Below are positions 3,846-44,804 of a DNA stretch of 64,000 nt, piece after piece (position 1 is the first letter of the stretch; every line of letters starts with the position of its first letter). The stretch comes from Turritopsis dohrnii (lineage: Eukaryota > Cnidaria > Hydrozoa > Anthoathecata > Oceaniidae). Both the position numbers and the translations under genes were made by a program. The DNA lies in contig BQMF02000064.1 of assembly GCA_027922465.2 (NCBI GenBank), forward strand, positions 1,116,001 through 1,180,000, read 5' to 3'. The notes beneath the pieces were generated by a model. That model did not search any database. It was not told where the DNA came from and saw only the letters and a list, made by a program, of their open reading frames with translations.

Positions 3846-3903
3846 ATGAATAAAATGGTTTTAAGACAACGTTTATAAAATGTGCAAACAGTATAACAAG
3901 TTT

Positions 3904-12560: not shown

Positions 12561-13166
12561 GAAACGTTAACATTTGTGAGCCTTTTTCATCTCATTTATA
12601 TAAAAAGCAAATTATAGTAACTCATTTTTATCAACTCACAATGAAGATAGATATAATACATAATTCATTTTTAAGATGTTTCAAGAATTTTGAGCAACAA
12701 CATTGAAATGGTAAATTTAATTCTCTATAGATCTCATGAGAATGATTAATTGTTTTGGCTATGTCAAAATGTTGGTACAGATTGATTTGCCAATATTGGG
12801 CAACATTGATTTTTCTATTGCCATAATAATTTTTTTCGTTTTTTTTGACTGCCATATTTTTCTTTCTCATTTATTCAATGAAAACAAAAGCATTCTGAAA
12901 AAAGGTCAGGAAGGATGTTTTGAATGAAATGTTAGGAATATGTTCAAATCATGTCAACAAGAAATTGTTGTGAGACTATTAAGTAGTCTGTGTGACTTAA
13001 AATCAACTAATTTTAAATCATTATTTTCAATTAATGTTGTTAAATCTGTTTACAATTAAGTTGACTAGCATAATTAAAATTGCAAATTAGGCGTTGATAG
13101 CAGATTCAATTTCAAAATAAAGACGGTCAAATGAATCCAACATGAAATTATCATGAATTGTTTCAG

Positions 13167-13230
13167 GGAATTGGTATTCTTGCTTTCCTACATCTGAAGT
13201 ACAATGTGGCACATGAAATCCTTTCAGAAC
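13167..13230 (+). CDS. Giant gene, first detectable exon
   Basis: Acceptor TTGTTTCAG at 13166 and donor GTAAGT at 13231 bound a 64-nt exon encoding GIGILAFLHLKYNVAHEILSE. The hydrophobic start may be the tail of a signal peptide whose ATG lies in an exon further upstream. No in-frame ATG exists in this exon. It joins exon 2 in phase 1. Confidence 0.4.
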
Positions 13231-16200
13231 GTAAGTTGCTAGTGAATAAATTAATTAAGCAACCAATCAATCCTTTAATCCAATCAATTTACTTCATAGA
13301 ATGTAACAAACCACTTGGGATGCGTTCAGGTGCAATCAAAGAAAGTGATATATACACATCACACAACCACATTCACAGTGCTCCATGCACAAATAAAGAT
13401 TGGGGATTGTCAGACACATCAAATTCATTTTGGTGTTTTCGATACGCGTCAACCTTACCATATTTGGAAGTCAAATTTGTTCATACAACAGTGATAAAGG
13501 GTGTCGGTATTAAAAGTGGACTATTGAATGGAAATCTCAAATTCACAATACAGCATGGTACTGTTTATGATGAAAGTGACTTGGAAATGTATGGAGTAAG
13601 GAAAGACAAGACAGAAGGAATGGTGTGTTCATTATCTATCTCATTCTTATCATTCTAAATATTCAGTCTCATCTGGACTTATAGGAGGAATATTTGAACA
13701 GTGTCATCTTTTCTATTTTGTATTGCAGAGTTTATAGAGTAAAAAGTTGAAGTTATTGCAAAAGACCATGAGCATTATACAGGATTATATATTTTCCAGG
13801 AAGATGTATGATTGGTGTGCAGAGATATTCATCTTGTATATGAATACTTATTCCCACACATACTTAATACATGTTTTCACATACCCTTCAGATAACCCTG
13901 ACATTACTTATAAAAGTATCAAAAGGAAGATTATTGAGAAATATTTATGGCACTACAATTTGAATAGATTAGTTACTTTTTTATTGAAATATTCACAAAA
14001 TACACAAAATCAATGTTTTGAATTGTCTTGGATATGCTTTCTTATGAGTGCTTCAGACCTTCTTGTTATACTTGTTAAATGCTCCTTAAGGATATGAAAA
14101 ATTCTGAATTTTAGTTTTTTGTTAAAATGTTTTTGTCGCATATAGCACAAAGATAAAATGATAACTATTTTTGATAATAAACTGTATAATGAAAAGAATG
14201 AAAAGCATAAAAATTTTAAGAGTGTAGACACCTATTAATTTGAATAATTTTGAATAAAATACTGGTTCCTTTACCACTAATGTTTCATGAAACTGGAGAT
14301 TTTTAAATTTAAGAGAAATAATAGGTTAGGTCTCCAGATTAGGTTTTGTCATAATTTAATGAAATTCATTAAAGATTTGAATAAGAATGAAAATGATACA
14401 TTTGCTAGATTGACTGGTTCACTTGCCAATAATTCTCTGATGAAAGTTTAATATGTAATGAACCTTGTAACAGTCGAAAAATTTCTTTATGGTTTCGTTA
14501 TTTAGATGAGAACATTTCAGCAAAATCTGAAGTCTGAAAATTTACAATAAACAGTCTACCAAAAATTAAATAAAGGCAAAAAAGTCTATTCAAGAGTCAG
14601 TCAAAAAACTGGAGCAGTTCAACATTATTATTCTTTATGAGAGATTCTCCAGTGAGTGTTTATATTGAATAAGTAAGATCGGATGGGCGTTTGAAGGCAT
14701 AGAAGTTGAAACAGAAATGAATCTATTTTTCTAGCCTGAGCAGATGCCAGCAGAATACCCTTCATATTATGCCATTTTACTAGAAGTCAGTTCATTCTGT
14801 AGATTTTAGTTTCTATGTTAGTCTCCTAGAATTTTTATGCACTGACATTCTGGTGATCTAAGCAGAAATATCACACATGTTTTTCTGTTTCATAGATGTA
14901 TGATTTGCCGAACGTCAATCAAGTCAAAACTATATGGTTTAATCTTACTAAAGCACGAACATCGCGAATTACTTTTATCGCTCTCGATTCAAATTATGCG
15001 ATCTCTTGGGGTGGTTTTCAGTTTGAATTCTATGGATGTCCTTATTGGAGCTGTAATTTTTTTAACTATGAATACTGATGAAAAAATAAATTGATAAATT
15101 ATTCTTTTTATTAATTCTATTTCATACTTTTTAGATGCTAAGCCTCTAGGAATGGCTAACGGCATGATAGATGATTCAAGGTTAATGGGCTACTACATAC
15201 ATCGAAAAAACATTGCCTCAGCAAGTTTTGCAAGACTAAATTCATATGGAGATGGATTTAAATACTCTGGTTCTCCTACTCAACTATATCCTGGCGACAG
15301 AAAAGTCTGGCTGCAAGTATCCTTAAAGGTTGTAAAAAAACTAGTTTATATTTCAATACAAGCAAATGACAATGGATTTAAATATTTTCTGGAATATGGT
15401 AAAGACTTGGGAAACCTTGCACAATTTTTTGATTCTAAAGAAAATAGCTATGTATGTGATATTATTTTTATAACCATGAGTCATCTTTATTCAAAGTCAT
15501 CACTGTTGATTAACTAATAAAATTGACGAAAAAAACTAAACTGAAATAGTCTACTGAACTAGTGGACCCATGGTCATCACTTCACTCTAGAAAGTACTTT
15601 TCAAACTTTTGAAAAATAAAAAATAATCATAAAATAAAAAACGAAATTTGAAGAAAAATGCTCCTATATAGACTTGAACATTTTACAACTGAAGCAGTAG
15701 CCATAATATTTCAACATGAAATTTAGAATTTGATGAAGAAGTTTTATTTTTGACTGAATTCATTCCACTGTATGGATTCTTACAATTTCAGATAATATCA
15801 ACTTCACAGTACCTTAACGCAATGGAAGATGCAACTTATATCTTTTCAAATCCTATTGTTGCTAAGGTTATGAAAATCTATCCAGCAGTTAATTCTTATG
15901 ATAATCCTTCATTTAAATTTGAGCTCTTTGGTGTTCCGATCTATTCCGGTAAATCATTTTTTTTATTTTCATTTCTTACTGGATTAATTTGATGCATTAA
16001 CAAAGATCATAATGTTACCATAGCGGACCATCAATGGAAACTTGAAAAACCTAATGTTTTTAAAGATGTTTTGATGTTTGAGGATTTACGTCCCTCTCCT
16101 CGAATCACTACAACAGATCATTTTTCTACTACATCTAACAATCGAATTCAACCTCATTTGCGAACTAATGAGTTACCTGATGATAGCTGTTTGATAAATC

Positions 16201-19200
16201 CAAAGAATTGCAAAGATGGGCTATCATTTTCTTTTTGGACTAGAAGTAAGAATATAATCTTTTTCCGAAGTTTTGATGACCTCCCTTTCTGTTCTTTATA
16301 TCATTTGTTTTCTTTAGTTCACTCAAAGGCAAATGGACATGGAAAACCATTGATGATTAAACCCTCCCATCTCGTCCAAAAATCTGGCTGTTTAAGTAAT
16401 GAAATTAAAGCAATAAGTTTAAAGGAAGAATTTTCAATACATCTCGAAAGTTTCAATGCTCCAAGATACCACAAAGTTGACTCATACTTGTGGCTTAACA
16501 TGGATAATAGAAATTTTTCCAATTATTACGATGTATATGGATTTGTTAACCACCCTTCATGGTTTGTCACAAGTTGCTCTATATTTAATTCAGATTTTGA
16601 ATTGTCACATGCAAAGGTCTTGATACAAACAAATGAGAATGCCAATATTGGAAAAGTTTTAGAACCTCTCCTAAATTTCAATGGATGGAATTATGGGTAT
16701 TCTATATCTCTTTTGTTCAAGCCTAGTGTGCTATCAGATGCGAACGTAACAATTCTTAAGAATTCTGATATATGGTTTTACCCGCAGATGTTTACAGGTA
16801 ACAAAATTTTTTTGTTTATTGTTTTTCTCTTGTGATTGATTTTAAATTTTTTTCTTGTATAGGTTGTTCTAACCACAAAAGTAATATTATCAACGATTTA
16901 TCAAATCAGAATTTTTATCCTGATTACCAAGATCAAGTTTGTAAAAATCCTCATACTCTAAAATTAAGCCATTCTGGTTTTGTGTTTTGTAACAGCACAA
17001 TAACGAATTACGTAGAAATAGACTTGAATCACGAATATTTTGTTGTTTCTATAAAAGTTGCTGGACTTCAATCTTCTACCGGCATGTTAAAGAAATTTCT
17101 TCTTGAATTTTCACATGATAACATTACTTGGGAATTCATTTCAGATGAAAACGAAAATAAATATGTGAGTACCAGCTTCAATTTTCATTTTTATGTCACA
17201 GGTGTTGAAAACAGACTGGACCAGCAATGAAATATTGATATCAAGCAAGTTAGATATTACCTTCAGAATATTATTATGTCGAACTCAGATGATTTACATG
17301 CTACTCTTATTTTGGTACAAAACCCAAATTGTTACTTTTGTAGTGTAGCAATATCTTTGCAATCTCTTTCAAAACTTATTATGACATTGGCAAATCTACA
17401 CCCCACTTTTATTTTAGAGAGTGATAAATTCAACTAAAATTTACAGTCAAGTTCTTCTTATTATCATGTGAGGCCATTTAGAGGCGAGAAGTGTAGAGAA
17501 GTGTGGGTACACTCTCTATTCAAGATTCTGTGATCTAATTTTTCGTCACCCATTTGGAGACAGGATTTGAGCAAATCACTTTTGAACCATAACCCATAAA
17601 AAACTTTTGCGCAAGATACTAGTAATTAATATAAACAAAAATCATCTTAATGTTCCGATAAACACAGTGTGTTTGTCCCCTTGATACTTACAGGTGAATA
17701 TGGGCATTTTGCCATACAATTCAAATGAAGCAAAATGTTACTAAACAAAGGGCTAGTGGGATTATTAAAATTGTTAATTTAATGAATTTAAATTTAGTGT
17801 TCTGCTTAATAATTTTAGGTGTTTGAAAGGAAGTCTTTGGCATTAAAAAAGATAGAAGTACTTCCATTGCCATATCCTATTTATGGTCGATACATACGTG
17901 TTCACTCAATAGACAACGAGTATATTGGGGATTTTCCAGGATTAAGATTCGATATTATTTCTTGTATTCTTCCTCCAGGTCAGTTCCATATTGAATTTAT
18001 GCTACCTTGTATTCACTCTTTTATTCATTTTTTTCACTTATTTTATTTTATTATTTTGTAGTGTAGTTATATTTTTTTTGCTTATTTTAGAAGCAAAACC
18101 ATCATGGATGAAACTCAATAATGCACCTGTTTGCTTTAAGGCAAAAAATGATGAACCTGCAAAAGTCATTCTGTCAAGCTATTTTAGTATATCTTATTTC
18201 AAACTCGTTTATAAATCTGGTTCAGTGAAATGTAATAATGGCCATAGTTCATATTCGAAGTTTAGCTGTGGTTTCACTACAGAATTAGGTGTAGTTGTAA
18301 CAAATAATTTAAAGAAAATTATTGCACCGTATTTAAATGATGTTAATGCAAATCGGTATCCATATCCTCCATTTCAAGGAGATTCATCTGAGATTCACTT
18401 GAAAGTGGATGCACCGAGATTTTTCCAAAAAGGAGAAGAAATAAGTGTTTGGTATTTGGAAGATTTGCACAATTCTACTGAAAATGATAATGATGGAGAA
18501 ACTTGCATTGACTTATATGGCTGGGGTATGTACACCAGCAAATTTGATTATGCAACAGATATTAACAAACAGCGAATGAATTTTTCAATTTACTAAATTG
18601 TTGTAATGATAGGAAGGTTGTGCTTGCTTACTGTTCATAGTAATGAATATTTCAAACTAAACTGAAATCTGAAATAATCTGGAAGGGTTGTTGAATAAAA
18701 TGTAGTTTTTTGAAATGAGATTAATGCTGTTGGGCTCTTTCTTGTTTCTTGTTGGTTATGAGTTTCGATGAATCATTTATTTTTGAGGTTTACCACATTT
18801 ACAATATTGGTTGGTTTTGGATGGTAGTTGCCCCGATTGTTTGTGCGCTTATGTCGATATTGGTGATAGAAAAACTTTAAAAATTGGTTCCGAATGTAAT
18901 CAAGCTTTTTACATGACAAAATATAATCATTTAGTTAGTGCTAACTATGGCAAATGCGTCAAAGTATCTAACAACGGAATTTTGAAAATCACAAAAAATT
19001 GTAATTCAAAGTTTCAAGTAAATGAATCAAATCATCTTCAACACAAGAGTTCAGGTGCATTTGTAGGTCTTCTAAATGACCAGCAAACCGAAGGGGGTCC
19101 ACTTAAAATGAGTGAAAATGCAACCAAAAGATTTGTGATCAGAAATATTCTCTACAATGGTAAGTAAAGATTCATTTTTAATTTATGTTACTAATGTTTA

Positions 19201-22200
19201 TTTTAATTGTTTGATATTTAATGAATTGAGTTATTAGATTGCTTGTTGTTTTTTTTTGTTTTGTTCCTTTTTAAAAAAAAAACCGTTCCTTTTGTAGTGG
19301 CAGATTTTGCAGCAGATTACTTGATAACAAATGCTTCCAATGAAGATATTACTGCAATCAGGGAAGCATGTTTAAATAATAATGCTGATCTTGTTAGTTT
19401 TGAATCAAAAGAGCAATTTGATGTCATTAATAAAAGGCTTTCAGAGTGGAATTTCACTGAAATCCCCTTTCATATTGGTTATAACCATGCAAGCAAGATT
19501 TGGTTTGATGGAGCACCATTTGATTTTCTGGAAATGACAAAAATCTCCTCAGAATTTACTTATCAAGATGTTTACTTACATTCAGGGCATGTGATTGTAA
19601 ATGACATGATTAAAAAACATGGACTTTGTAAGAAAAGTATGTAACGATTTTGTATGGTGAAAATGCTTTATCCATAGCTTTTAGAATCTGGTTTATTCGA
19701 TTCATTTACATGGTTTAAATTAAGTTGGATTTAGTAGTTTTTAGTTTTGTTTTTAGGACATGGAAACTCAAGTATGGGATTTAATATTCCGATTATTTCT
19801 ACTGGGGTCCATGTTGTAGATGGCAATGTCATTGGCAATGGTTTTCTCATTTCAAGTAACATAGCTGGAAACCGTCTATTTGTTGCACTCGCATACGAAG
19901 GAACAGTGTGTGATGGTGTCATTGCAATTAATTCATCAGTGTGGATGCTTGTTAGTCTAACATTTTCAAAGTCTACTGTCTTGCTTAGTGTTATGATAAA
20001 TAGTGAAGACGCTGAGAGCATACCATGTACAAATAGGCTACCTACTACAGATTTGCTGCAAAAACCACAGTTTTTTCTAAAGGAAATTTCGAATTATTTG
20101 AACATTCTAAGTTTTTATGATCATTCTTACATTTACATCTATGCTGATATTGCTAACATCATATTTTGGCAATATGCCCTTGAAGCTGAACAATTGAAGA
20201 AACTTTATGATACAGGTATTCTGTATTTTCAGTTATCTATAAGTTTAAGTTGTTTGGAAAGTTTCCAAGTCATTTGAACGAGCAAAGTCTCTAAAATAAA
20301 AATGAATAAAAAATTGAGGTGATTTATTTAGACATTTAATCTATTTCTGGATTTTGTTTAAGATGCAATCACTTTCTCTGATTATCCAACATTTCCTAAT
20401 CATGAATGGAAGATTAGGAGTTCTGTTTGTTCAGAATCAACATTAGGACTATGTGGTGATGTTGATCGATTACTACAAAGAGGCAAAGGTATAGTACTAT
20501 AAACTGGTTTTAAATTAAAAATTGAAATATGTTATGTAGGACAAGATGGTTGTATTTTTCAGAAATTGAGTGTAATTGGGTTCATGGAGACCCAATTGGT
20601 AAACATCAGGAATATATTGGTTTGTTCAATATCGAATCTGAATGCATTTATGAATGTTATGATAATAGTGTACATGACCACAGCATAAATGGCGTCTCAA
20701 TGAGATTGCATTTCTGTTACTGCATATACGATATGTATAACATTTCTGAAAATGCGGCTGGTCAGATATCATGCTATTTGCCAGTTAAAGGTATGGAAGA
20801 TAATCTAATTGATCAAGATAGATAAAATATGATATCATAGTTTATTATCTTTTTTAGTAAAGTATGGAGTACAAACTCAACCTCATGCTGGATTGAGAAA
20901 AATCCAAATTCATCCTTCTAATAAAATGTGGTATGCAATTGGAATGGATAATCAACTTTATCGACACCCCTCTCGAAAATCCCTAAATGAAGACTTGTGG
21001 ACTAAAGTTTTTCCTATCAAATTTCCTATTGATGAATTTCACTTCTTCAAAAATGAAATATGGGTTCAACATCGAAATGGTTATATATACTATTGGAATG
21101 GACAGAATTTTGTTTCAAATTCGCATATTGGTGTAGTAAGAACATTTTGTGTGGGCGAAACACATTTATTAATCATACTAGCCTCAAATGAAAGATATGT
21201 TCTCAAAAAACATGGTAAGTCTCATAACTTAATGAGAGTAGTGATCAATCTTATAATACTTTTCTGATATTGTTGAAGGATACTATTGAAAATTGCCTTT
21301 TTCTTTGCAGCTGTGGTTGGTTCATATCACTATTCCTCTATCTATCAATTCGTTGTTGGGGTGATCTTTGATCAATATCATGATTCATTTGTTCTTTACA
21401 CTTCATATTATATTTATCAGTATAAGATAGGAAATCAAGTAGAATATATTAAATATATCAATCTAAATAAGCAGGTGGCAATATCAAGTTTTGGCACGTT
21501 TTATTGGTTGAAAACAAATCATGCAATCTATAGTAATATTGGATCATTAGATGAGGAAATTGGACCATTGGATCGTTTAAGTCAAGTATCATCCTTTGAT
21601 GTGGACAATGATCAATATTTTGTGTTATTGGATGATAAAGGCATTGTTCATCAATATCCTGTAACATCAGGTAAGCTCTTAAACCATCCTAGTATCTTTA
21701 ATTTAATCTGCCAACTGTGAAATCTAATTATTTTGGTTTGACTGGATATTTAAATCACAAAACATAGCCTATTAGCCTATTTTAGAATCCCAAAAAGCTG
21801 ACCTTGAGAACATAATTGTAATGGGCATTTTTTTATCAGAGCATAATAGTAAAGCCATACCGGTTATTGAACAAATTATACAGGTATGACAAGCAGGTGT
21901 ATCAAAATAAGCAAAGGCAGAGACAATAATAAATGCTATCAAACTGAGAAACACATGTTTTCTCCTAAGGTTTTCAGTTTATAAAAAAAAAAAAAATAAA
22001 AAATTTCACTATTATTCATTATGTGTGAACAACCTAAATGTTCAAGCAGTGACATAAGTGTTATTTTTTTTTTAATCTTTATACAGGATATTCGTTTCAG
22101 ATAGCTCAATAATGGCGTTGTTAAGAACGGACGTGCTCTGTTTTTTGCTGATATTATTGACACTTATACAAAAAAATAAAGTTCGCTTTTTAACATCAGA

Positions 22201-31200: not shown

Positions 31201-34200
31201 TGTGATTTATTGGAAAGAAGTAACATATAATGAAACATTTAACATCTCCTTATATGAGCAGCTATTTGTCCCCAATGAATTTGTTGGTTTTTCTGAAGTC
31301 AAGCTGCAATCACCTAAATTCATAAAAGTGAATATATCAGATTTGATGCCATTTACAAATTACAGTATCTTAGTAACCACATTAAACGACATGGGTTTGG
31401 GAAACTTTACAGAAGTATTTTGTCGAACAGCTGAGTGGTGTAAGTAATATCGCAACCAGATTTTTTTCTCTACCTGAAAGACTTACTCTACTGTGCTTAA
31501 AATCCTTCTTGATGTTTGTGATTATTATTTAGACCCAGAGTACATTCCTGAAATCACAGAAATCCATTCAACGAATGCACAAGCGACAATAATTTTTCAA
31601 GAAATACCAAATAACATTGAACTATATAATTCATGGAATCTTGAAGGTTATAATGTTACATTAGTTAGAGGAGGCTTAAATAAAACAGTTGTTCTATCGC
31701 CTAATGAGACATCAGTGGTATTTTCTGGTTTGGATTGTTTTTCTATCTATCAATTACACGTAGTTGTATTTAACCACATTGGTCCTGGACCAAATACAAC
31801 TGTCTGTTTCTCTACTCAAGAACATGGTAAGAACCAAACAGCTAAATAATTGATTTATCTAGGATTTTAAGATTTTTCAGTAATTTTTCTTGATAAACTC
31901 TTGATGTTAGCAAAATTATTAATAAGTTCAATCAATTCTCATCGTTCTGTTGGCAGTACTCTAGCTCTTATATTATGCTATGTCTTCCCTCTCATCACGT
32001 ATATTATACGTGCTATTTTTTTCTTTCATAGCACCAACTTTAGAAATTGAAGTAATCATTGAAGAGGTAACAAACATTTCTATCAGCCTTTCAGTAAGTG
32101 GGATGGATATAAACAAAGAGAACGGAGTTATAATCTCTTACCTTGTGCACTACAAAGGACTGAATAATGATAAAGAAGAACGAGAATTCCATAAACATAT
32201 TGAACACAGTGGTTTTGATCTCGAACATTGGAATGAGATGAAAAAGGTTTTTGTAAACTGCAGCTTGATTTCAAAACAAAAACCAAAGTCAGCACAGCCG
32301 TTGAACATCTCAATAAGCAATCTGACACCTTGGACGTTCTACAATCTCTCCTTGAGTCCTTGTAATAAGATTGGCTGTAATAACAAAACTACAGATATAA
32401 CTTTTGAAACAGAACCATCCGTACCATCTTGCTCACCTAACATTTCAATTGTGAGTTTGGGCTCGACAGAGTTACTTGTATCTTGGCCATGTATGAGCAG
32501 CTGTGTTAATGGACCATTTGTTTCTTATCATACTACTCTAAAAGAGAGTGATATGTATAAACAATTGTCTCCTGTGTTTACACACAATGTGACTAGATGC
32601 TCCACCATTTTCACTGATTTAAGAAAATATTGGAATTACACAGTAGTAGCGTTTGTTGAGAATGCTTTAGGTTATGGACCAAAATCACAAGCAAAATGGA
32701 GTTTCACAGATGAGGATGGTGAGTACTGTTTTTTGTTGAATCAATCAAATTAACATGTGTTGTTTGAGTTAAATAAGTTTATTTTAGAACCATCTGGTGA
32801 ACCAACAAATTTATCAATCCAACCTTGTGGTAGCACCATCATATGTATCAATGTCAGCTTGCCACTATATTCATTAAGAAATGGTGTCATTCGTGGCTAT
32901 GTAGTGACATATTATGATCACCGAAACCTGGAATCTAAAACATCCACTTTTCCAATTAACACAGAGGAAACTGTTTTTCTGAAAATTGTCAATTTATCAA
33001 AGTTTACTGATTATGATTTATCAATTGCTGCATTTACTAATGTTGGAAATGGTCCGCATGTAACAGAGAATGTCAGAACTCTTGAAGATGGTAAATACTG
33101 TTTAAATTTTAAGTGTATATTATTATGGTGAGTTTTAGTATTCCTCATTGTCATGCTCTTTGCTTTGGTTTTTTATAGTACCAAGTTTAGGTGCGCATAA
33201 CGAAGAAGTTTCTAATGTTGATGCATTTAGTGTACATTTTCAATGGGAAAACATCCCTGTTGATGCGATGCACGGTGTCATGAGGTTTTATTTTGTAAAT
33301 TGCGTGGGTATGTTGGCAAATCAGTCCATTCACATTTTGCCTGCTTTGAACATTACTTTTTATGAACATCAACCATTATACAAGGCCATGTTTTCTGGAT
33401 TGTTTGCATACACGACTTATAATATTACCATACAAGCCTGTACAACACCTGGTTGTGGTAGCGAATCAACAATCCAAATAAAGACAGAAGAATCAAGTAA
33501 GTTTACTTATTATGTGTTATTTTTCTTTAACTTTTTATTTTTCCCATATCGAAATATTTAATTTCTGTTTTACTTCATCTATCTTGCCTTTTTCTTTGAT
33601 AATATATATTATTTTATGTTAACAAAAATTTATTTGAAATTCATTTTGATGTAGGAAACTTGAAATAAATGTGTTGAAAAGTAAAATTGCAATTCTATTG
33701 ATTTTCTGATTACAGTGCCAGTTGGAACCGTCCAAAATTTACATCGGTGTCACAATAGCACAGTAGAGACGTTACATTTGAAATGGTCTGATTTATTACC
33801 CATGGAAAAAAGGGGTATCATACAAAACTTTACCCTTACCTTTATCGAGGAGGAGTATCAATGGGATTATGATCCAGAATCAATGATTGTCTCTGGCAAT
33901 CAGTTTAATATCTCCATTCCTAATCTTCGTAACTTCACTACATACATCGTGGAAATTGTTGCCTCTAATAGAATGGGTAAAGGGCCATCAATGACAAAAC
34001 AATTTCTGACACCAGAAAATGGTGAGCAAATCAAATTTGAATTCTAATATCTGGAAGTTCTTTTGAGTATTAAAGAAAATTACGAAATCATCCAACTAAA
34101 TTGTATTTAAAGAGAGATTTGGTATGAATTAGTATATTTTTTTTAGTGCCTTCGGTTTCACCTAAAATCATTGCAGCATATAACATCAGTAGCACAGCTT

Positions 34201-37200
34201 TAAAGGTAGAGTTTTCTCCGATAATTGAAAGCACCTGGGAAGGTACACCATTGGGATATTATATGTACTACCAATTAGCTGAAGAAGATCCAATTTGTGT
34301 CCCTGGCCAAGTTTGCCATCACAGAAACTATGTCATTTGCCTTGGGGACAAAAGTGATAGCTGTGAAATACATAATTTGATGTTGCATACAAATTACAGT
34401 ATCTGTTTATCTGGGTTTACTAATGCTGGTCCTGGTGTACTCAGTGAATGTCTTTTTGCTGTTACAGATACTTATGGTATGATCTTAATTCTCAACATTT
34501 TAACAGCCATCAACTGATAACAGCCATCATATTCTTAATCAGCCTTACTTAACTTACATATCTTATTTACATTGTCTTGTTGTCATTAAAACAAAAAATA
34601 AGAGATGTTCTACTAAAAAGTGTTGTAATCACAAAGTTTTATTTTAACAGTCTCTCATATGGAGAGTTAAGTTTGTGTTTTATAGGAATTTGTTAGGAGG
34701 CTGTAATCTGGTCTAGCTGAACTGTTTATGGCCAGGCAAACGTATTAATCTCAACCAGGAATTCAACTTTTAAACTTCTAGTTGATGGGAACTGGTCAAT
34801 ATGGAGTACGTGGGGAAGTTGTGATAAAAGTTGTGGTCTTGGCATTCAACAAAGGTTCAGATTTTGTATTAACCCAATGCCAGCAAGAGGAGGGGCGAAT
34901 TGTACCGGCGATGATGTTGAATCCAGACGTTGCAACGATTTCCCATGTCCAGGTGATGAGTTTAACAGTACTCAGAAAAAAACACATTTTTAATATTTCT
35001 GAAAAACTTCAAAAATTCATTGAAATGTCTTTAAAATTTTCATTTAGGTTTTTACTTAGCTAATAGAATGCAAGATTGTCAGAGCGCATGTGCAACTCTT
35101 GGCGATGAATTTGCTTGCTCTACTGTTATCAAAACAAAAAACCAGACCACAGTATTCAAAAATGCCATTGATATCAATAACTTTTCGATTTCATTCAATT
35201 TGAGTTGTAAGAAAAATTTAGATGAGCAGTTCTTCTCAAAAGAATTTCACCCAGCGTACTCTGTTGAAGATGAAATATGCGTTGGTTATAAAGGTGTCCC
35301 TGAAACGATCAACTGTAGCAACACTGAAGATTTCGATGCAAAATATAGACGATTATGTTATTGTATTGACAAAGGTATTATCAGAGAATATTAAAACTTT
35401 TATTACAAGATGGTGTCTGTCATACTTAATACATGCATTTGTGTATCATCTTATGTATATTGTAGAAACAATGGGATACACGTTGTGGTCGATATGGAGT
35501 CCTTGCACTAAATCCTGTGATCTTGGACAACGAAAACGATACCGAAAATGTTTGATACAAACAGGGTGTGACAAGACTGAGGATACTAATGATTGCAATC
35601 AGCATAGTTGTCCACGTAAGACGTTATTCAAAATTGAATTGGTCATTATTTGTATTGGATCTAATGTGACTGCCCAGAGATATGTAGGACTCCCACTGGT
35701 CTTAATATACTTGATGGATTTCCTTTTAGTTGACGGTCAGTGGGGAGCATGGTCTGCCTATGGTAAATGCTCAACCACATGTGGTTTTGGCAGGCAAATA
35801 AGAAAGCGATTATGTAATTCGCCTTCTCCTGCCTTTTTTGGAAAATTTTGTGCTGGAACAGATATTGATGTGATGACTGGGTGTAGTCCTAACCCTTGCC
35901 CAAGTACGTGTTCTTTTCTCTTTTATTTATATCAGATTTTTCTCGAAAACTGTTTCAGGAATGGATATATCTTTTCTGTTTCTGACGTGGTCTAGTAAAA
36001 ATGTTTAAAATACCCTAGTTTCTCCCCCTCCTCCTCATCCTCTCTTTCCTGTGCCAACGATTGTTCCCAGTTCTGAAATTCCTTTAGTTTTCATGTAAAT
36101 TAACACAAAAGTAAAATTGGAAGGTGCTGATTTCCAATTTGCCAGTCATTTTTTAGATTTGGTCAAAATTGGGCAATTTGTCAAGGATTGGACCAAATTT
36201 CATTAATTTTTTCAATTTTCATAAACGTTTCGACTATTTCAAATTGTTTGGGACATGCATCGGATAGTTGTTGTTGTGACGTCACGGCTTGAAGTCTTCG
36301 AGTTGTTAGGTTTCTTATGTTGCACTCAAGTTCAGTATATAAAGGGAGTCTTTTAACCAATGAAAAACAAGGAAAAACAAGATGAATAATGCTTCCATAA
36401 AATGATTGTTTTATTTTCACATACAGTTCATGGAGGCTGGTCGAAAGTTTCCAGTCTTAGTATGTGTACACAACCCTGTGGCGAGGCTGGTTCAAAATGG
36501 CAGAAAAGACATTGCAACAACCCGACACCAATGTATCATGGGCGAATGTGTAAAGGAGCGGCAGTGCGACACGTCCCATGCATCCAAAACAAAAAATGCA
36601 AACGTTTGTTTTTATTATTTATCGCGTTGTGCTTTTCGATTTTTTTTCCCAAAAATATCTATTATGTTCTTATGGTTGTTGTGAATGATACTAACGATGT
36701 CGAAATCCAAACTTTTTACCCACACGCCAACCATGGTGGCGCTTACAGGAGCCACTAAACTAAGCAAATTACTTCCGGCCAGATAAGAAAACGTTGATTA
36801 CCTTTTGATTTTATTGACCAACTGCAATAGCTTTGAATCGCTTTTCTTCGTAAACTATATTTAGGACTTAGTGTTACCTTTCTAATCAAACTTCCATTCG
36901 TCAAATGGCAATTTAAATACGTTTACTTGGGCAGCAAGGAAACTTTGGAACTGACGTCGAACCTAAGTAACGCAGTAAGTTGCTCTCCAGTCTTTGAAAC
37001 TTTTGATGCAAGATGTAAGCTTATATCCAGATTCAAAACTTGTTGGGCGTGTTTAGGTTGTTGTTTGGTTATCTTGTACTTTAGACCTTAATTTTTTCGA
37101 AAGCTTTTCTGTTTTCCCTATTTATCGTAGTTCCAAGCTACTTACGGTTGCATTGATTCATGTTGTCTTGTTTAGATTGAAAACCATATGGCGAACAGTT

Positions 37201-38269
37201 CTGTTGGAGTTAGTGTTATCGAGTACATTCAATACAACGAATTAAGGTATGTGATCTTCATAGGGTCTGCTCAGAAACGAAAAAAAAAAAAAAAAAAGAT
37301 GTGATTGAATTAATGAAGTGGGTGTGTCCTCTTTTAGATCTGGCAGTGTAAATGTGAATTTCACCGTGTTTTTCAAGGGAAATCCATTCGTTGAAACTCT
37401 TGTGCTCCAAGATGCCTTCGATAACATTGGACGTATCCATGACATTCCTGCTCAGTTGATCCAAATATCATCGCCTGATGGTAAACCTGTTTTTTTGTGT
37501 TTTTAATGATCCTAATGGGCTCATTACTGGACCATAAGTGACATATTGTCGGTCTAAATCGCTGGCCGAAACTAAAACCTGTGACTAAAAGTAGATTTAG
37601 TCGTTACAGGTTGCGGCGAAGAATGATCAAACCTTTACTATGTGAAATATGACCAAATTGATGAAAGTACAAAATCTCCTTAACTTTATTGATATCTACG
37701 TCAACAACCGACGCCGACTAAAATGTTGTTTTTTTTCCCTTCAAACCTGAAATGCCACGGCACGCCACGTCATGCCTACTTGGTCTGATAATGTTTTGTT
37801 TACTCAGTTTGTGTAAGTTGTGTTTTTTTTTCGGTAACCGAATGAATATTCTCGTCTAACGAAAAACTACCGAGAACACAAAAATTCCTTTTTTCTATCT
37901 CATCGAAGCAGATGAAAAAACGATACTGATTATTTTAGTTCCCGACAAGCCGCCGACGTGTTACATCGAATCAGTAACGTCACACGAGATTAAAGTGTAT
38001 TGGGACGCGATAAACGTAACTGCGATCGATTTCTATGCGTACTATGTATTCGTTCGAGACGTATCTAATTCCCATGGCAACTGGACTTCGTATGGAACTC
38101 GAACAAATTGGATTATTTTGGAAGATTTGAAGGCTGGACACCAGTATGGAATACGATTAACAGTATCCATAGCAACTGGCAATGGCATAGCCTCCAGCGA
38201 AGTACTAGTCAGAACCCTTGATGGACGTTAGTATTCTAAATTCCTTCTTTTCACCCATTTATTTATTTA

Positions 38270-38301
<32 letters not shown>

Positions 38302-41300
38302 ATTTTCAATATAAAAATTTTCGTTCGAAAACAAAATTTCCTAATTTTTCATGAGAAAAAAAATATTAGAAATGGATTTATGTTGATATCGAATTGGTAC
38401 CAGACTTTAGTACTGGCTCATGGATTGGATGCCATATCTTTTTTTAGGCCCCACTATGCCGCCGTCCAACCTAACATATCATAGAATCAGTGGGCATAAA
38501 GTTTATCTCAGTTGGAAGTCAATATCCAATGAACATGCCGCTGGTGCATTGGTTGGTTATAAGGTAATCTATACACGTCGCGATATAAATGTTTCAAGAA
38601 GTGTCACTACATCTTTGTCGCAACTGCAATCTACACTTGTTGACTTAAAACCAGCAACGTGGTACTTTGTTGAAGTCGCAGGTTATACAAATGCAGGATC
38701 TGGTCCCGCTGCCTATACAACCTTCATGACACTATTTGCAGGTAGGAGTTTCGATATCTTCGTCTCAGTGCTCAGATTAAGTATTGCTCTAGTTTATGCA
38801 AATGAAAATGGCGTATAGATCAGTTATGTGTTAGCATATTTTATCTCTCGAGAAATGAAGAAAATTGATATATCAGATGCTTTTTTTTTAATTAGCACCT
38901 GGCATTGCGCCTCCCAATATCCAAGTCAACGATAGAATATCTTCCAGGCTGTTGAGTCTGTCCTGGAATCCAGTCCCAAAAGAAGAAGAAAATGGATACT
39001 TGACTGGTTACAGAATCACTTATTGGTTGTCATATGAAGGTGGGGTTGAAGTGCCGATGGGTGCAAAGAAAATAGTTATTGATCTCGATCGATTCACGCA
39101 TTCATATGAACTGAATAACTTATCACCGTATTCGATCTACACGGTCAAACTGGGTGCTTTCTCGGAGGAAGGGTACGGCCCCGAAGCGACGTTTAACGCA
39201 GGTTTGTTCCTAAATCTGAATATTTTCTGCGGCTGATGCAAACAAACAAATGTATTCTTTTTACAAAAAGATTTTTCTGTTTTTTTTTTATGTTCCTGCA
39301 CAGAAACATGCAAATGTCCACAACACATTTACACAAACTATTTCAATCTCGATCCATACGTGAATTTTGACGAGAACGATCAAGTTCATGGTTACTTGCC
39401 GAAATTTATTACGGAGGCATTGAATAACATTTGTACTAACTGTCGCTCGTATACCAAGCCAAACGTCTATTTTGACCGTACGTTGACTGGTTATCCCGCT
39501 AAAAAAGATTCCGAATCGGAAACTAAACAAAGCATTGGCGATTCGGCTCAACTGAATTTTCCGTTGATGAACAAATTTTACTATAAATACTACGCAGGCA
39601 CTTTTCCATATGTGGGGCTTTTTCGAGTTCCAGGCTCCGCGATCATCACGAATGATATACAAGTGAGATCAATTGGAATTGCAGGCATCTTTAAAACTAT
39701 AGCATCTGCTTGGACGATTATCTTGGTCATGTTTTTGATATCAGTTATTTGTGGTTGGTGTTTCTGGTACACGGTGAGCTTCATTCAAAATCGTGTCATT
39801 ATTGACATCAGTTAGGCGTTGTTTATACGAAGATCAGCTACCCGGCTAATCTCGTTTTCTGAGGTCTCGCTGGTATTCAGAAACTCTCTTAATCCCTGAT
39901 AAGAGAGCTATGTTGCTTCATATTGACGTGAATTAGGGAGATTCACGATTACACGAAAACAATCAATTACTTGTGAGAATTCTTTTGAAACTGTTCTACT
40001 AAAACGATACTTCAGAGATTTAAAGCCTTTTGTTGTATCAAAAGAAACATCATTACTTTGCACGTTTATTTCAAGTGTTGATGTGAAGTTTCTAATGACT
40101 TTGTAGGGAAAAATTCACGAACAACTCTACTAAGTTGTATATAATTCCCTACAAATCTATAGAAAAATAGTTTCGTGTAAACGAAACATGATTTTTCCGA
40201 ATCCCGGTAATTTGTCTCGACACCATAAACCAACCCGGGCTGATATGATTAAAACCCTTAATGTAATGTATTTATCAAGAAGAAGTTCATTTTATTACTA
40301 GGAACAAATATCATCACATACTGATATATCCCAACAGGAAAGTCTGAAAGGGGCTTGGCAAGGCGTGTGGATGGCTTTTGTTACCATGTCAACAGTCGGG
40401 TAAGTATTTGGAAGTGGAGACGAAAGTTTCTCTTCAACTTTTCCTTATTGCAGAAGTTGTTTATTTCGTCAGATACGGAGACTTTGTTGCTACAACATCT
40501 TTATCTAAAATGCTGATGGTTTTATGGATAATGACTGGCTTGTTGTGTGTCAGCATATTCACTGGATTTATAACATCCAATCTTACGTCTAATAACATGC
40601 ACAAGCCAATCAAATTGTATGGAACAACTGTAAGAAAAATATGTATTCATTGAACTGTTTTGAAATTGACGTTGACAGATTTTTATTTTAAAATGAAAAC
40701 ACTTGATTTTGCAGACCGCTGTTGTTTCTGGTACAACAGAATACACGCACGCCATTCTTCGCAACGCAAAAATTATCGACGCTTCTACTCCTCTGGAAAT
40801 CCTAGAAATGGTTCGCAACAACAGCGCGGAAATCGGGTTACTCAACAAACTTGATTGTGTACGTTACCTAGATGACATCCACAAAATGTCTTTGAAAGTA
40901 GCCAAGCTTATTACAGTGGACTCTGGATACGGTATAGCTTTGTCTGGCGGATTGGAGCCGTTAATTAGGGATATCCAAAGTCACGTGTTGGCTAACCAAG
41001 CAGCGATCAGTGCGAAATTTGAGAGCGTTACAATTCAGGTGACTCATATGTTTTGTTAGCGATATGTATGCGACATGTATGCGATATGTATGCGACAGCG
41101 ACATGGTCGAATATAAATTATCCAGAAGTCGGGTCTCACGAACATACACGCCTATCCTTAATGTACTAAGTGTTACAATCCTCGCAGATGAGCCGTAGTT
41201 GCACTCTGTCTGTGGATGAATTCGGTTGGACTTCTCTAATCCACAAGATTGAGGTTTTGGACTGAAGGTTTTGAACATAATCTTGATGACATCGGATCGA

Positions 41301-42115
41301 CAGTGCAGTCGGTAGACCAATCGCTCATCAAGCGAAAGCTCGTGTGTTCAATTTCCACTCTCTCTATTATGGATTGCAGAGATGGGAAATTGCCTTATGT
41401 CTATAACTGATTACAAATAATACATATTATGGTTACACATTGGTGCCATCCCAGTGTGTAAAATCGTCAAAACATGACTGCGATGAAGAGCAATTTTATT
41501 GAAATAGCGTGTATATTTCTAAAGAGATGTTCTCCTTCGCAGTGATTTTTCGACAAATTTGCCAACTGGGATGTCGTTTATGAAAGAGAATTAACAAAAA
41601 CCTTTTTTTCAGGTAAACGTTACAGTTACGAAATCCGAAGTCTTTTCGTCCGAGGAACTAATTGGTCACGTGAAAGTTCTGGGGTATTTCTTCATTGTAT
41701 TAACCCTGCTCGGCAATATATGGTGGTTAGGGCGTAGATGTAGGAACAAAAATAAAATAACGCCAAGAGGTATCCTTTGTGTTTTCTTATTTTATGATGT
41801 CCTTTTCAATACTGTTGTGTACTGATAAGGGGGCGGGAAAAGGGCGCTAAATCGTGTATTTAATTGGAAACTATGGCGCTTATTTTAGGCACCCTTCATG
41901 AGTTAGGAAGTTTACATGGTAGTGTCCAGGAATTCGAACAAAAGTTTCGAACATTGGTTGTCAAATTTGATAAGCAGCACATGAAAGAGATAGGTGACTT
42001 GCAGTGTCTCAAATCCAACTTTGTGCGGCTCATGACGAGAAACGGATATTTTACGGAAGAGGAAGTTTCCAAGAAAATGAAGAAAAGGAGCAGAAGGAAA
42101 ATACAAAGTGAATGA
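13167..42115 (+). CDS. Giant multidomain adhesion ectodomain fused to a K+-type iGluR-like channel
   Basis: Fifty-four exons with acceptable GT-AG sites join into one frame of 14,241 nt (at least 4,746 aa) ending with TGA at 42113-42115. Most exons begin and end in phase 1, as expected for shuffled extracellular modules. Predicted order: discoidin x2, LamG-like, discoidin, unassigned, trefoil-like, C-type lectin, LamG-like, PAN-like, propeller-like, C-type lectin, jelly-roll/LamG-like blocks, SEA-like, FN3 x9, TSP1 and Cys-rich units, SEA, FN3 x3, then an ion channel (S1-M1-pore TVGYGD-M2-S2-M4) and an 87-aa basic tail. It would sit in the plasma membrane with almost all of its mass outside. 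The ATG/signal-peptide exon was not found; the first exon I can support is 13167-13230. Since phase-1 exons join in any combination, two adjacent genes cannot be excluded without transcripts, but no stop-plus-poly(A) or new signal peptide interrupts the series. The 3' poly(A) signal is near 42442. Confidence 0.8.
13300..15052 (+). CDS. Giant gene exons 2-3: discoidin (F5/8 type C) domain 1
   Basis: Exons 13300-13595 and 14896-15052 encode residues about 22-172. The start CNKPLGMRSGAIKESDI and the end ITFIALDSNYAISWGGFQFE then FYGCP are the two signature ends of an F5/8C domain, whose first and last cysteines normally pair. Exon phases are 1-0 and 0-1, identical to the two other discoidin copies. 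Discoidin domains bind carbohydrates, phospholipids or collagen at cell surfaces. The 1.3-kb intron between the exons holds no gene. Confidence 0.75.
15135..15948 (+). CDS. Giant gene exons 4-5: discoidin domain 2
   Basis: Exons 15135-15451 and 15792-15948 (residues about 173-330). The start AKPLGMANGMIDDSRLMGYY and the end MKIYPAVNSYDNPSFKFELF then GVP match the F5/8C pattern. The same split and phases (1-0, 0-1) as copies 1 and 3 point to tandem duplication. The terminal Cys is replaced (GVP in place of GCP), so the usual N-to-C disulfide may be missing. Confidence 0.72.
16006..16797 (+). CDS. Giant gene exons 6-7: linker plus LamG-like jelly roll
   Basis: Exons 16006-16245 and 16318-16797 (residues about 331-570). 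Exon 6 has a Pro/Thr-rich linker ending CLINPKNCKDGLSFSFWTR, the 'C..GlsfSFW' entry strand typical of LamG/pentraxin-like domains. Exon 7 continues a beta-rich region of about 160 aa with two Cys and several N-glycosylation sites. The exact family is unsure. Confidence 0.55.
16863..17978 (+). CDS. Giant gene exons 8-9: discoidin domain 3
   Basis: Exons 16863-17164 and 17819-17978 (residues about 571-724). Signature strands YVEIDLNHEYFVVSIKVAGL and ITWEFISDENENKY are followed by YGRYIRVHSID and the closing LRFDIISC. This is the best-conserved F5/8C copy, with 'W...isdenen' and 'aRYIRv' both present. Phases again 1-0, 0-1. Confidence 0.78.
18091..18525 (+). CDS. Giant gene exon 10: unassigned domain
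   Basis: A single 435-nt phase 1-1 exon (residues about 725-869). It has four or five Cys and ends with the striking run EISVWYLEDLHNSTENDNDG then ETCIDLYGW. The acidic NDNDG could bind calcium. I do not recognise a named family. The exon acts as a self-contained, shuffled module. Confidence 0.6.
18788..19159 (+). CDS. Giant gene exon 11: ricin-type beta-trefoil-like module
   Basis: A 372-nt phase 1-1 exon (residues about 870-993). Repeating CNQAFYMTKYNHLVSANYGK, CVKVSNNGILKITKNCNSKF and HLQHKSSGAFVG elements resemble the 'gkCl.v....l.l..C...F.....l.h..sg' repeats of ricin B-type lectins. Fewer than three full repeats are visible, so this may be a partial or divergent trefoil. The acceptor was set at 18787 because only that site keeps the frame. 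Confidence 0.5.
19298..19636 (+). CDS. Giant gene exon 12: C-type lectin-like domain 1
   Basis: A phase 1-1 exon (residues about 994-1106). The pattern 'C..nnAdLVSFeSkEqfdvI...' followed by FHIGYNHASKIWFDGAPFDF and a closing Cys is the CTLD long-loop layout. No EPN/QPD or WND calcium-sugar motif is seen, so sugar binding may be lost or non-canonical. The donor GTATGT at 19637 was chosen because the earlier GTAAGA at 19628 would create a stop at the junction. Confidence 0.65.
19757..20215 (+). CDS. Giant gene exon 13: LamG-like domain
   Basis: A phase 1-1 exon of 153 codons (residues about 1107-1259). Strands SSVWMLVSLTFSKSTVLLSV and the end ANIIFWQYALEAEQLKKLYD match the concanavalin/LamG fold ('W..v.l......l..yvng', '...iydrALs..Ei..ly'). 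The last motif is typical of the LamG_3/pentaxin type. Confidence 0.65.
20363..20790 (+). CDS. Giant gene exons 14-15: linker and PAN/apple-like Cys-rich unit
   Basis: Exon 14 (20363-20488) is a short linker with two Cys. Exon 15 (20563-20790; residues about 1302-1377) has the C...C..C pattern with HSINGVSMRLHFCYCIYDMY, resembling WSC/PAN modules ('C...C.......fgv....CyC'). A similar unit lies between the first and second TSP1 repeats at 35048. Assignment tentative. Confidence 0.5.
20858..21670 (+). CDS. Giant gene exons 16-17: beta-propeller-like (tectonin-type?) unit
   Basis: Exons 20858-21214 and 21311-21670 (residues about 1378-1616). They contain repeated strands such as MWYAIGMDNQLYRHP, EIWVQHRNGYIYYWNGQNF, TFYWLKTNHAIYSNIG and YFVLLDDKGIVHQYPV. 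Each reads as a 'w.v...g.iy.' blade like tectonin/tachylectin propellers. Few Cys are present, consistent with a propeller. At least four blades can be counted by eye. Confidence 0.5.
22112..25202 (+). pseudogene. CR1-like ORF2 (APE endonuclease / reverse transcriptase), broken
   Basis: Readable coding parts are 22112-24106 (endonuclease and N-terminal RT), 24110 to about 24345 (RT motifs A and B) and about 24345-25202 (YADD, thumb and C-terminal region), separated by one stop and one frameshift. In life the enzyme nicks target DNA and copies its RNA in place (target-primed reverse transcription). This copy cannot make a complete active protein, given the stop, the frameshift and the lost motif-A aspartate. 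Confidence 0.85.
22331..22357 (+). other. 2A-like ribosome-skipping motif in the LINE
   Basis: Codons 74-82 of the frame read GDIELNPGP, matching the D-(V/I)-E-x-N-P-G-P consensus. It lies after two hydrophobic segments and just before the endonuclease. 2A-like motifs at this position are established for some APE-type non-LTR retrotransposons of invertebrates, where they separate a leader peptide from the enzyme during translation. Confidence 0.9.
26122..26412 (+). CDS. Giant gene exon 18: C-type lectin-like domain 2
   Basis: A phase 1-1 exon (residues about 1617-1713). The pattern 'a.nWC.ndesnLASVnDEyhaeLI' then SWIHLKN and a closing TWLPFIC is the CTLD core. No EPN/QPD motif. It follows a 4.45-kb intron that contains the CR1-like LINE. 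Confidence 0.68.
26538..27026 (+). CDS. Giant gene exon 19: beta-rich (jelly-roll?) module
   Basis: A phase 1-1 exon of 163 codons (residues about 1714-1876). The strand pattern YAFVKKVNMVFVTDNELIGE, VYWTFQKWEYTMETPDISKL and LKIKNAYLKVFYEDN resembles carbohydrate-binding jelly rolls, with an alternating hydrophobic pattern and W..Y motif. Family not certain. Confidence 0.5.
27105..28849 (+). CDS. Giant gene exons 20-24: LamG-like region
   Basis: Five exons (27105-27352, 27490-27616, 27966-28344, 28468-28582, 28699-28849; residues about 1877-2216) with mixed phases 1-0, 0-1, 1-2, 2-0, 0-1. WLSFWYYMSVRNWSNLLVWQ opens a LamG-like strand set. FISCLQIYSKALTLAELNGL then EFCP closes one ('isclqiY.kaLt..Ei..l..C'). 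There are probably two jelly-roll units. The intron after exon 21 holds a SINE. The last donor (GTTGGT) is weak. Confidence 0.55.
27676..27950 (+). mobile_element. tRNA-derived SINE
   Basis: A polymerase III A box (TAGCCTTGTGGTAGAG, about 27684-27699) and B box (GGTTCAATCTC, 27727-27737) are spaced as in a tRNA. A non-tRNA body follows, then a 3' end ATTCATAAATAAATA. That tail resembles the end of the CR1-like LINE 2.4 kb upstream (ATAAATGAATAAATA). The SINE lies in the intron between exons 21 and 22 of the giant gene. Confidence 0.75.
28925..29694 (+). CDS. Giant gene exons 25-26: Cys-rich spacer and LamG-like domain
   Basis: Exon 25 (28925-29038) has a compact Cys-rich unit (ICKYGINVAFAEKVCYCYDQ). 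Exon 26 (29113-29694; residues about 2255-2448) is a 194-codon jelly roll with ATVGFWIFIADVAFDANSVY, TWVFFTLIYTVDGISMYVND and a late LSIGPFVCIDEF, matching the LamG_3 layout. The donor of exon 25 is GTAGGT, chosen for frame. Confidence 0.6.
29781..30443 (+). CDS. Giant gene exons 27-29: SEA-like domain 1, cleavage site altered
   Basis: Exons 29781-29911, 30039-30112 and 30304-30443 (residues about 2449-2563), phases 1-0, 0-2, 2-1. The same three-exon, same-phase split encodes the SEA domain at 36865-37480. The strand that normally carries GSV(V/N)V reads SGKVLLNY here: the nucleophilic Ser is replaced by Lys, so self-cleavage is not expected. The match rests on gene structure plus position and pattern; sequence similarity is low. 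Confidence 0.5.
30531..34476 (+). CDS. Giant gene exons 30-37: nine fibronectin type III domains
   Basis: Eight phase 1-1 exons (30531-30845, 31086-31439, 31533-31826, 32032-32718, 32788-33090, 33179-33496, 33716-34021, 34147-34476; residues about 2564-3532). The 687-nt exon 33 carries two FN3 units. Each ends with the FN3 signature, e.g. LKPFRNHSIKIWPVSHFGYG, LMPFTNYSILVTTLNDMGLG, LTPWTFYNLSLSPCNKIGC and LRNFTTYIVEIVASNRMGKG. Many N-glycosylation sites are present. No RGD motif was noticed. This stretch is a long, elastic spacer or ligand-binding rod. Confidence 0.85.
34782..36603 (+). CDS. Giant gene exons 38-42: four TSP1 repeats with a Cys-rich insert
   Basis: Exons 34782-34952, 35466-35615, 35730-35903 and 36427-36603 each encode one thrombospondin type 1 repeat. 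Examples are WSIWSTWGSCDKSCGLG, LWSIWSPCTKSCDLGQRKR, WGAWSAYGKCSTTCGFGRQ and GGWSKVSSLSMCTQPCGEAG, with the WxxW (C-mannosylation) and CSxTCG motifs. Exon 39 (35048-35374) between repeats 1 and 2 is a separate Cys-rich module (DCQSACATLGDEFACST ... LCYCIDKG), PAN/WSC-like. Residues about 3533-3865. All are phase 1-1. TSP1 repeats usually bind glycosaminoglycans or partner receptors. Confidence 0.85.
36865..37480 (+). CDS. Giant gene exons 43-45: SEA domain 2 with intact GSV cleavage motif
   Basis: Exons 36865-36974, 37176-37246 and 37338-37480 (residues about 3866-3973), phases 1-0, 0-2, 2-1. The sequence VTFLIKLPFVKWQF ... IENHMANSSVGVSVIEYIQY then SGSVNVNFTVFF is the SEA fold, with the G-S-V-x-V loop at which SEA domains of mucins and adhesion receptors cut themselves between Gly and Ser. 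The two halves would stay bound non-covalently, leaving a removable outer chain and a membrane-anchored FN3-channel chain. Confidence 0.72.
37939..39201 (+). CDS. Giant gene exons 46-48: three membrane-proximal FN3 domains
   Basis: Exons 37939-38226, 38448-38741 and 38896-39201 (residues about 3974-4269), all phase 1-1. Signatures: LKAGHQYGIRLTVSIATGNG, LKPATWYFVEVAGYTNAGSG and LSPYSIYTVKLGAFSEEGYG. The second and third are textbook FN3 units (SLSWNPVP..., GYRITYW). They connect the SEA joint to the channel, so force or ligand signals on the ectodomain could pass through them. Confidence 0.88.
38257..38296. repeat. (TTTA)n microsatellite
   Basis: About nine TTTA/TTTG units in the intron between exons 46 and 47 of the giant gene. 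Confidence 0.8.
39304..42115 (+). CDS. Giant gene exons 49-54: iGluR-like ligand-gated channel with TVGYGD pore
   Basis: Exons 39304-39773, 40302-40399, 40473-40629, 40715-41038, 41613-41769, 41889-42115 (residues about 4270-4746). Lobe S1 includes VHGYLPKFITEALNNIC and VPGSAIITND. M1 is AWTIILVMFLISVICGWCFW. The pore loop AWQGVWMAFVTMSTVGYGDF is split by an intron between the GG and A of a filter glycine codon. M2 is KMLMVLWIMTGLLCVSIFTG. Lobe S2 runs AVVSGTTEYTHAILRNAKII to SGYGIALSGGLEPLIRDIQ. M4 is VLGYFFIVLTLLGNIWWLG, then an 87-aa tail ending in a basic cluster. The TVGYGD filter is that of K+ channels. The SYTANLAAF gate motif of animal iGluRs is absent (TGFITSNLTS here). The agonist is unknown, and the canonical iGluR Arg could not be placed with certainty. 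The first exon has no signal peptide, so it needs upstream exons. Confidence 0.88.
41293..41445 (+). mobile_element. tRNA-like SINE fragment
   Basis: AGTGCAGTCGGTAGACC (A-box-like, about 41302-41318) and TGTTCAATTTCC (B-box-like, about 41345-41356), with a possible anticodon-type stem CGCT/AGCG between them. It does not fold into a complete tRNA, so I read it as the head of a tRNA-derived SINE in the intron between exons 52 and 53. Confidence 0.5.
41448..41572. mobile_element. Palindromic MITE, copy A
   Basis: About 125 bp with ends ATCCCAGTGTG and CAACTGGGAT. The interior is an inverted pair (CTGCGATGAAGAGCA / CTCCTTCGCAG) around TTTCTA(A/T)AGA. The same element occurs at 47672, 48718 and 51392. 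Confidence 0.8.
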
Positions 42116-44760: not shown

Positions 44761-44803
44761 ATGTTGAAAAGGAATGAAGGAATTCAGGTGCTTCAGATTT
44801 ATC

Positions 44804-44804
<1 letters not shown>

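Follow-up and report, generated by a model that had tools for sequence, protein, structure and literature searches.

Ionotropic glutamate receptors (iGluRs) and K+ channels are thought to descend from a common pore ancestor, and iGluRs with a K+ filter are described from a cyanobacterium and a rotifer (part of PMC12332018). The bacterial receptor, GluR0 (Synechocystis Slr1257), is K+-selective and has two transmembrane segments; AvGluR1, from the rotifer Adineta vaga, is laid out as eukaryotic iGluRs usually are and bears a K+ filter signature (same part of PMC12332018). Here we describe a gene of the hydrozoan Turritopsis dohrnii, located in a stretch of 64,000 nucleotides (contig BQMF02000064.1, positions 1,116,001 to 1,180,000, forward strand; denoted the window), whose predicted product joins an iGluR-shaped channel with a K+-type filter to a very large extracellular arm. 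We use the S1/S2/M1/M4 nomenclature of iGluRs, which assemble as tetramers and in animals carry an amino-terminal domain (ATD) before S1; to our knowledge, the rotifer is the only animal from which a K+-filter iGluR is described. Our tentative reading, held at close to even confidence, is that of one giant membrane protein in which an arm of lectin, MAM, LamG, FN3 and TSP1 modules takes the place of the ATD and which may well be an adhesion- or contact-gated K+ channel.

Compared with GluR0, the window protein adds M4 and an arm exceeding 4,200 residues, and the ligand-binding Arg is not recognized in it (poor alignment). Compared by description, it is like AvGluR1 in being of iGluR type with a K+ filter and differs in the FN3/TSP1/lectin arm, which replaces the ATD. 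With the metazoan iGluRs (AKDF, NMDA, Epsilon and Lambda) it has the predicted S1-M1-P-M2-S2-M4 fold in common, whereas their pores are not of the GYGD kind (L001, an ordinary iGluR of this genome, reads LLQQGPDY). In the main text of a survey of metazoan iGluRs (PMC6307864) the terms potassium, fibronectin and GYG do not occur. Within the open-licence papers searched, a set with preprints and most subscription journals outside it, the architecture is new among K+-filter iGluRs. A first, sequence-only reading of the window had called the receptor class undescribed, which holds for fusions of this kind in those papers, but such proteins do sit in databases as uncharacterized entries.

The gene was modelled with our own Viterbi-type exon finder (codon bias plus GT/AG site matrices), leaving the earlier exon list aside. 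The extent of the chain varies with the settings. One setting yielded two chains, broken at 27866/27968, the second extending to 43292; strict settings gave nine short chains, looser ones a single chain of 38 exons (25918–41984), and masking of a retrotransposon together with coding bonuses at the TSP1, M4 and tail exons a single chain of 69 exons (12452–42115). In each of these runs a single chain holds both the final FN3 exon and the one for S1. Hand curation removed 15 predicted exons, mostly of micro or zero length but including 36157–36275 and 41188–41253, and reset two exon ends, leaving 54 GT-AG exons in a single frame with a single stop. Exon 27721–27825 was rejected as a dispersed repeat and taken out in frame; a search with exons 17–27 gave, beyond the window itself, only matches confined to the stretch around this repeat. 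The final model has 53 exons and 4,715 amino acids, close to the 54 exons and at least 4,746 residues claimed earlier; exon 1 starts at 13300 instead of the earlier 13167, and the channel begins with S1 in exon 48 (exon 49 of the earlier count). The one-frame chain itself is real. As a control, the coding model was learned from the exons before 30000 and all bonuses were switched off, with splice matrices still derived from the entire gene. Region 29990–42400 then reached a score of 301, its reverse complement 48, region 46000–58400 40 and three shuffles 42–72, although this unhinted chain deviates in detail (the S1 exon is split and the end lies at 42179).

From N- to C-terminus the protein is composed of F5/8 type C, a part with no assigned domain, C-type lectin, MAM, LamG-like, a first FN3 array, TSP1 units with a Cys-rich module among them, further FN3 and the channel (see the table below). 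The discoidin and lectin modules and the four TSP1 units of the sequence-only reading were recovered by Pfam, which also placed a MAM domain that had gone unnamed; its LamG-like part matches Laminin_G_3 below the cut-off, and nine stretches pass as fn3 where 12 units had been counted.

The filter reads TMSTVGYGD, of the TxVGYG kind that marks GluR0-type K+-filter receptors, and is spelled over two exons (TMSTV and GYGD) with an intron within the first G codon. An intron splits the filter (TVG/YGD) in the giant members for which both halves were read; a copy on contig C47 lacks it. The clamshell (S1/S2) is divided by M1-P-M2 and followed by M4, as in iGluRs. Kv and BK channels are the best sequence matches of the pore, whose profile (A1) matches a solved voltage-gated K+ channel (6uwm, 2e-15). 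The S1S2 profile with the pore left out matches binding-protein-type entries, including GluR0 (1ii5, E 2e-4). Pfam is weak on single S1S2 members (Phosphonate-bd in 1 of 11 at 0.0014, below cut-off; SBP_bac_3 in 1 of 11 at 0.15; two unrelated families). Lig_chan gives 26.8 bits for the window and 21.5 for P0009, a protein of another genome (both below the cut-off of 30.8), and 37.8, above it, for P0011, also foreign. A first AlphaFold model was weak (predicted local distance difference test (pLDDT) 58, predicted template-modelling score (pTM) 0.34; Foldseek rows shown all iGluRs, with TM-scores near 0.2). The second, which we used, reached pLDDT 68 and pTM 0.53, and all 50 Foldseek rows shown are iGluRs. 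The S1-M1-P-M2-S2-M4 fold is thus a prediction, made by AlphaFold on a Clytia relative and by the profile match to GluR0. The earlier proposal of a fused protein with a K+-type filter and iGluR topology is supported.

The join between FN3 and channel recurs in the genome (436 Mb in 891 contigs searched). Paralog S1 exons were examined at 23 loci (sets of 11 and 12; a partial S1 match of 68 residues, C115:558827, is left out of the count). Using a profile built from the window's own FN3 units, we found same-strand FN3 exons upstream of S1 at 23 of 23: at 11 of 11 in the first set and, in the second, within 1.5 kb at 11 of 12 and at about 3.1 kb in the twelfth. The profile had no match at 19 control loci (11 compact relatives, see below, and eight Lig_chan loci) or on the opposite strand of the 23 paralogs. 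At least 24 genomic copies, the window included, have FN3 preceding S1, where animal iGluRs carry the ATD, and the Pfam scans returned no ATD family. The S1 acceptor falls in the same codon and in phase 1 in all 23 paralogs, which agrees with the phase-1 FN3 exons of the window. By matrices trained on this gene, donor 39201 scores 6.0 (95th percentile of all GT, 4.1) and the S1 acceptor 4.2, slightly below its 95th percentile of 4.6. The Cys-rich module has ten non-self genomic matches, each of them followed on its own strand, at a distance of 2.7–9.8 kb, by a paralog S1 exon (counting matches that span about residues 57–165 of the query and excluding those merely reaching in from TSP1), and TSP1-region matches lie upstream at no fewer than 12 of the 23 loci (81 of 753 candidates scored). 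The earlier reading had asked for the same join in other species and had named a separate start or poly(A) site as evidence against itself. The join is present in four proteins of other genomes (P0009, P0010, P0011 and P0012); in the window, the open frame ahead of the S1 exon, which encodes a hydrophobic stretch, has no Met, and the two introns flanking the last FN3 exon contain no AATAAA or ATTAAA. Judged by sequence, the FN3-S1 join and its conservation are established.

All four foreign proteins, P0009 (Hydractinia symbiolongicarpus LOC130655123), P0010 (Clytia hemisphaerica), P0011 and P0012 (Oculina patagonica ACROYT_G034798), have FN3 and a TVGYGD channel, and three of them TSP1. P0010 aligns as one piece to window residues 2583–4750 and P0011 to 2733–4728 (numbering before removal of the repeat exon). 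P0009, P0010 and P0011 are near-complete over exons 30–53, P0009 lacking FN3 exon 46, and P0011 also covers exons 17–29. Their N-terminal parts are shorter than that of the window protein, and they stand in databases as uncharacterized, with no function assigned by the sources. In a tree of 16 channels rooted on the GluR0-like protein P0001, the window, its paralogs and the four foreign proteins form one clade (0.94), apart from intronless relatives (0.87). Since the window channel pairs with that of Hydractinia (support 0.987), several giant copies are probably older than the Turritopsis-Hydractinia split; the position of Clytia has a support of 0.29. The giant family is probably cnidarian-wide. 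A homologue search with the 477-residue channel alone retained 0 of 4592 candidates, giant relatives being beyond its length limit. Profile A1 matched eight proteins, one of them P0001 and the remaining seven with ion-channel domains, and relatives of P0001 occur at ten loci in bacterial genomes and at none in viral contigs. Ratios of amino acid-changing to silent substitution (Ka/Ks) between paralog S1 exons are 0 to 0.38 in nine of ten pairs, the tenth being saturated; amino acid changes are few compared with silent ones. Another six M2 exons that carry YGD (L064–L067, L070 and L071) lie on C57, C95, C4, C126, C47 and C353, contigs for which no S1 exon was listed; on their account, more members than we counted probably exist. 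Near-identical opposite-strand copies (C241:464079/531883, C8:1448531/1555285 and C86:999339/C99:963548) represent either recent duplication or unmerged haplotypes.

For the arm we draw on the typical roles of lectin, MAM, LamG, FN3 and TSP1 domains. Four subunits would assemble with arm and clamshell outside the cell, and the arm would attach to matrix, to glycans or to an adjacent cell. This attachment, or a pull on the FN3 stalk, might then be relayed to the S1 lobe and thence to M2, opening the pore to K+ so that the cell is hyperpolarized or silenced.

Several observations weigh against this reading of a single adhesion-gated K+ channel. Gating by adhesion is suggested by the names of the domains only, and the labels ligand-gated and matrix-sensing of the sequence-only reading are likewise suggestions. 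Of the 24 copies, 14 gave a reading of the complete K+ signature or of its YGD half, one of the first half only and nine of neither; the V position varies among copies (TLG, TTG). Both structural models are modest, and S1 is the worst-modelled part (pLDDT 32–49, residues 61–100). The exon chain required masking, coding bonuses and hand curation, exons 1–16 have little support outside the window, and a scan of 4000–13290 for a signal-peptide exon returned one weak candidate, with no start codon or signal peptide identified. Among the 23 paralogs, several form near-identical pairs, so independent cases of the join are fewer than 23; in seven paralogs an in-frame Met occurs no more than 60 codons ahead of S1, its position not being conserved. 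The Ka/Ks pairs overlap, and several have fewer than ten changes. Finally, Oculina P0012 lacks TSP1 and the lectin part.

The alternative that survives best is a chemoreceptor, in which a soluble ligand docks in the clamshell, like glutamate in GluR0, and opens the K+ pore, while the arm merely positions or anchors the channel. We regard it as possible, though doubtful. It draws on compact intronless relatives in the same genome (L022, L023, L028–L033, L035, L037 and L038, on C86, C99, C220, C441, C34 and C410). All 11 examined are single open frames of 411–478 amino acids with S1-M1-P-M2-S2-M4 and TVGYGD at an FN3-free locus, mostly with a hydrophobic leader (by eye). Because such relatives exist, clamshell and pore seem functional without an arm; they would make up a second branch of K+-filter iGluRs in animals, one resembling chemoreceptors. 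The GluR0-like fold of S1S2 points the same way. In iGluRs, an S1 arginine binds the amino acid carboxylate and an S2 aspartate also has a role in the binding site. In our alignment, which is poor here, the S2 Asp is retained in eight of nine giant members with S2, but the window and five of six compact relatives have Asn; Arg is absent from the carboxylate-Arg column of P0001 in 17 of 17 members, several having an Arg one to three residues away. The alignment is unanchored at this position, since the Arg of the ordinary iGluR L001 falls in another column than that of P0001. Against a purely chemosensory role stand the separate clade of the giant members and the FN3 before S1 in every in-genome copy examined.

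A second alternative concerns the extent of the gene: a lectin-type gene (exons 1–16) could be followed by a separate FN3/TSP1/channel gene starting near exon 17 or later. Intron 16 is 4.4 kb long and contains a retrotransposon, Hydractinia P0009 starts within the LamG part, and foreign support for exons 1–16 amounts to one short alignment to P0011 (residues 173–411, E 7e-6). On C115, an exon-9 paralog precedes the channel exon by 24.6 kb in the same orientation (spacing in the window, 21.2 kb); this is the single exon-9-like match near a channel exon, none of the others lying within 100 kb of a listed same-strand S1 exon. However, the two splice sites of intron 16 agree in phase and score well (donor 7.9, acceptor 5.7; matrices trained on this gene), and no good phase-1 donor follows the signal-like frame at 25918. 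These splice sites favour a single gene across intron 16, short of proof. P0011 moreover unites LamG, MAM, FN3, TSP1 and channel in a single protein whose N-terminus is F5/8-like by alignment to the window, although its tectonin-type part follows LamG; in the window, the part that looks propeller-like by eye precedes the lectin. We consider two genes unlikely.

An ordinary Kv or two-transmembrane K+ channel with an unrelated extracellular part and no iGluR kinship would account for the best pore matches, but is very improbable and was rejected, since the S1S2 profile and predicted fold indicate a binding-protein domain wrapped around the pore. That a separate channel gene with its own start was misjoined to an FN3/TSP1 adhesion gene is barely credible: the hydrophobic stretch ahead of S1 in the open frame speaks for it, but this stretch has no Met, the window has no poly(A) signal there, and the join is kept in all 23 paralogs and four foreign proteins, on which grounds we rejected it.

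Features of the giant channel gene in the window (positions of the window; final exon numbering)
Feature	Position	Strand	Evidence
Exons 1–8, N-terminal galactose-binding (F5/8 type C) modules; model lacks the 5' end	13300..17201	+	F5_F8_type_C 9e-11 in exon 8; residues 173–411 align with the P0011 N-terminus, E 7e-6
Exons 9–16, ectodomain part; propeller-like by eye only	18091..21670	+	One frame; no Pfam match at E 0.05
Non-LTR (long terminal repeat) retrotransposon (endonuclease and reverse transcriptase) within intron 16, outside the protein	22076..25199	+	Pfam RVT_1, Exo_endo_phos
Exons 17–20, C-type lectin then MAM	26122..27616	+	Lectin_C 3e-8, MAM 4e-10; 22–27% identity to P0011
Exons 21–26, LamG-like modules	27966..29911	+	Laminin_G_3 3e-4 (below cut-off); P0011 alignment
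Exons 27–36, linker then first FN3 array; two FN3 in exon 32	30039..34476	+	Pfam fn3; exon-wise alignment to P0009, P0010 and P0011
Exons 37–41, TSP1, Cys-rich module (35048–35374), three TSP1	34782..36603	+	Pfam TSP_1, four stretches; genomic matches
Exons 42–44, module between TSP1 and last FN3	36865..37480	+	29–52% identity to P0009
Exons 45–47, final three FN3, beginning and ending in phase 1, adjoining the channel	37939..39201	+	Pfam fn3; donor 39201
Exon 48, S1 lobe and M1	39304..39773	+	Phase-1 acceptor as in 23/23 paralogs
Exon 49, pore helix and first filter half (TV, codons 40392–40397)	40302..40399	+	Exon chain, Pfam scan
Exon 50, rest of GYGD (to 40482) and M2	40473..40629	+	Ion_trans_2 1e-11 across exons 49–50
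Exon 51, S2 lobe	40715..41038	+	S1S2 profile match to GluR0 1ii5, E 2e-4
Exon 52, M4	41613..41769	+	34% identity to P0009, 52/52 residues
Exon 53, predicted cytoplasmic tail and stop codon	41889..42115	+	Exon chain; exon-wise comparison

The retrotransposon of intron 16 carries the motif GDIELNPGP, which we take to be 2A-like. Just 3' of the gene lies a reverse-transcriptase piece (43567–44875, minus strand) with an adjoining recombinase-like open frame (by eye; no Pfam match), and further on an HMG-box gene, SOX-like by eye, with one intron within the box (49775–51946, minus strand). Upstream, 1085–1339 (plus strand) is an exon of a CYFIP-type (FragX_IP) gene. An Rfam scan of the window gave no match at the gathering score.

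A whole animal family is seen here to keep the K+ filter, in compact and in giant form. It is conceivable, though we hold it with some doubt, that the giant form is a new cnidarian receptor class of adhesion-gated K+ channels in which the iGluR ATD has been replaced by a giant matrix- and glycan-binding arm, contact with cells or matrix, or pull, directly silencing the cell, the family having expanded to at least two dozen copies in one genome that serve as contact-identity sensors beside a compact chemosensory branch. If the giant form does sense contact, it would link adhesion directly to hyperpolarization in one polypeptide, and would then bear on how nerves first evolved and on how cnidarians sense mechanical stimuli and recognize tissue.
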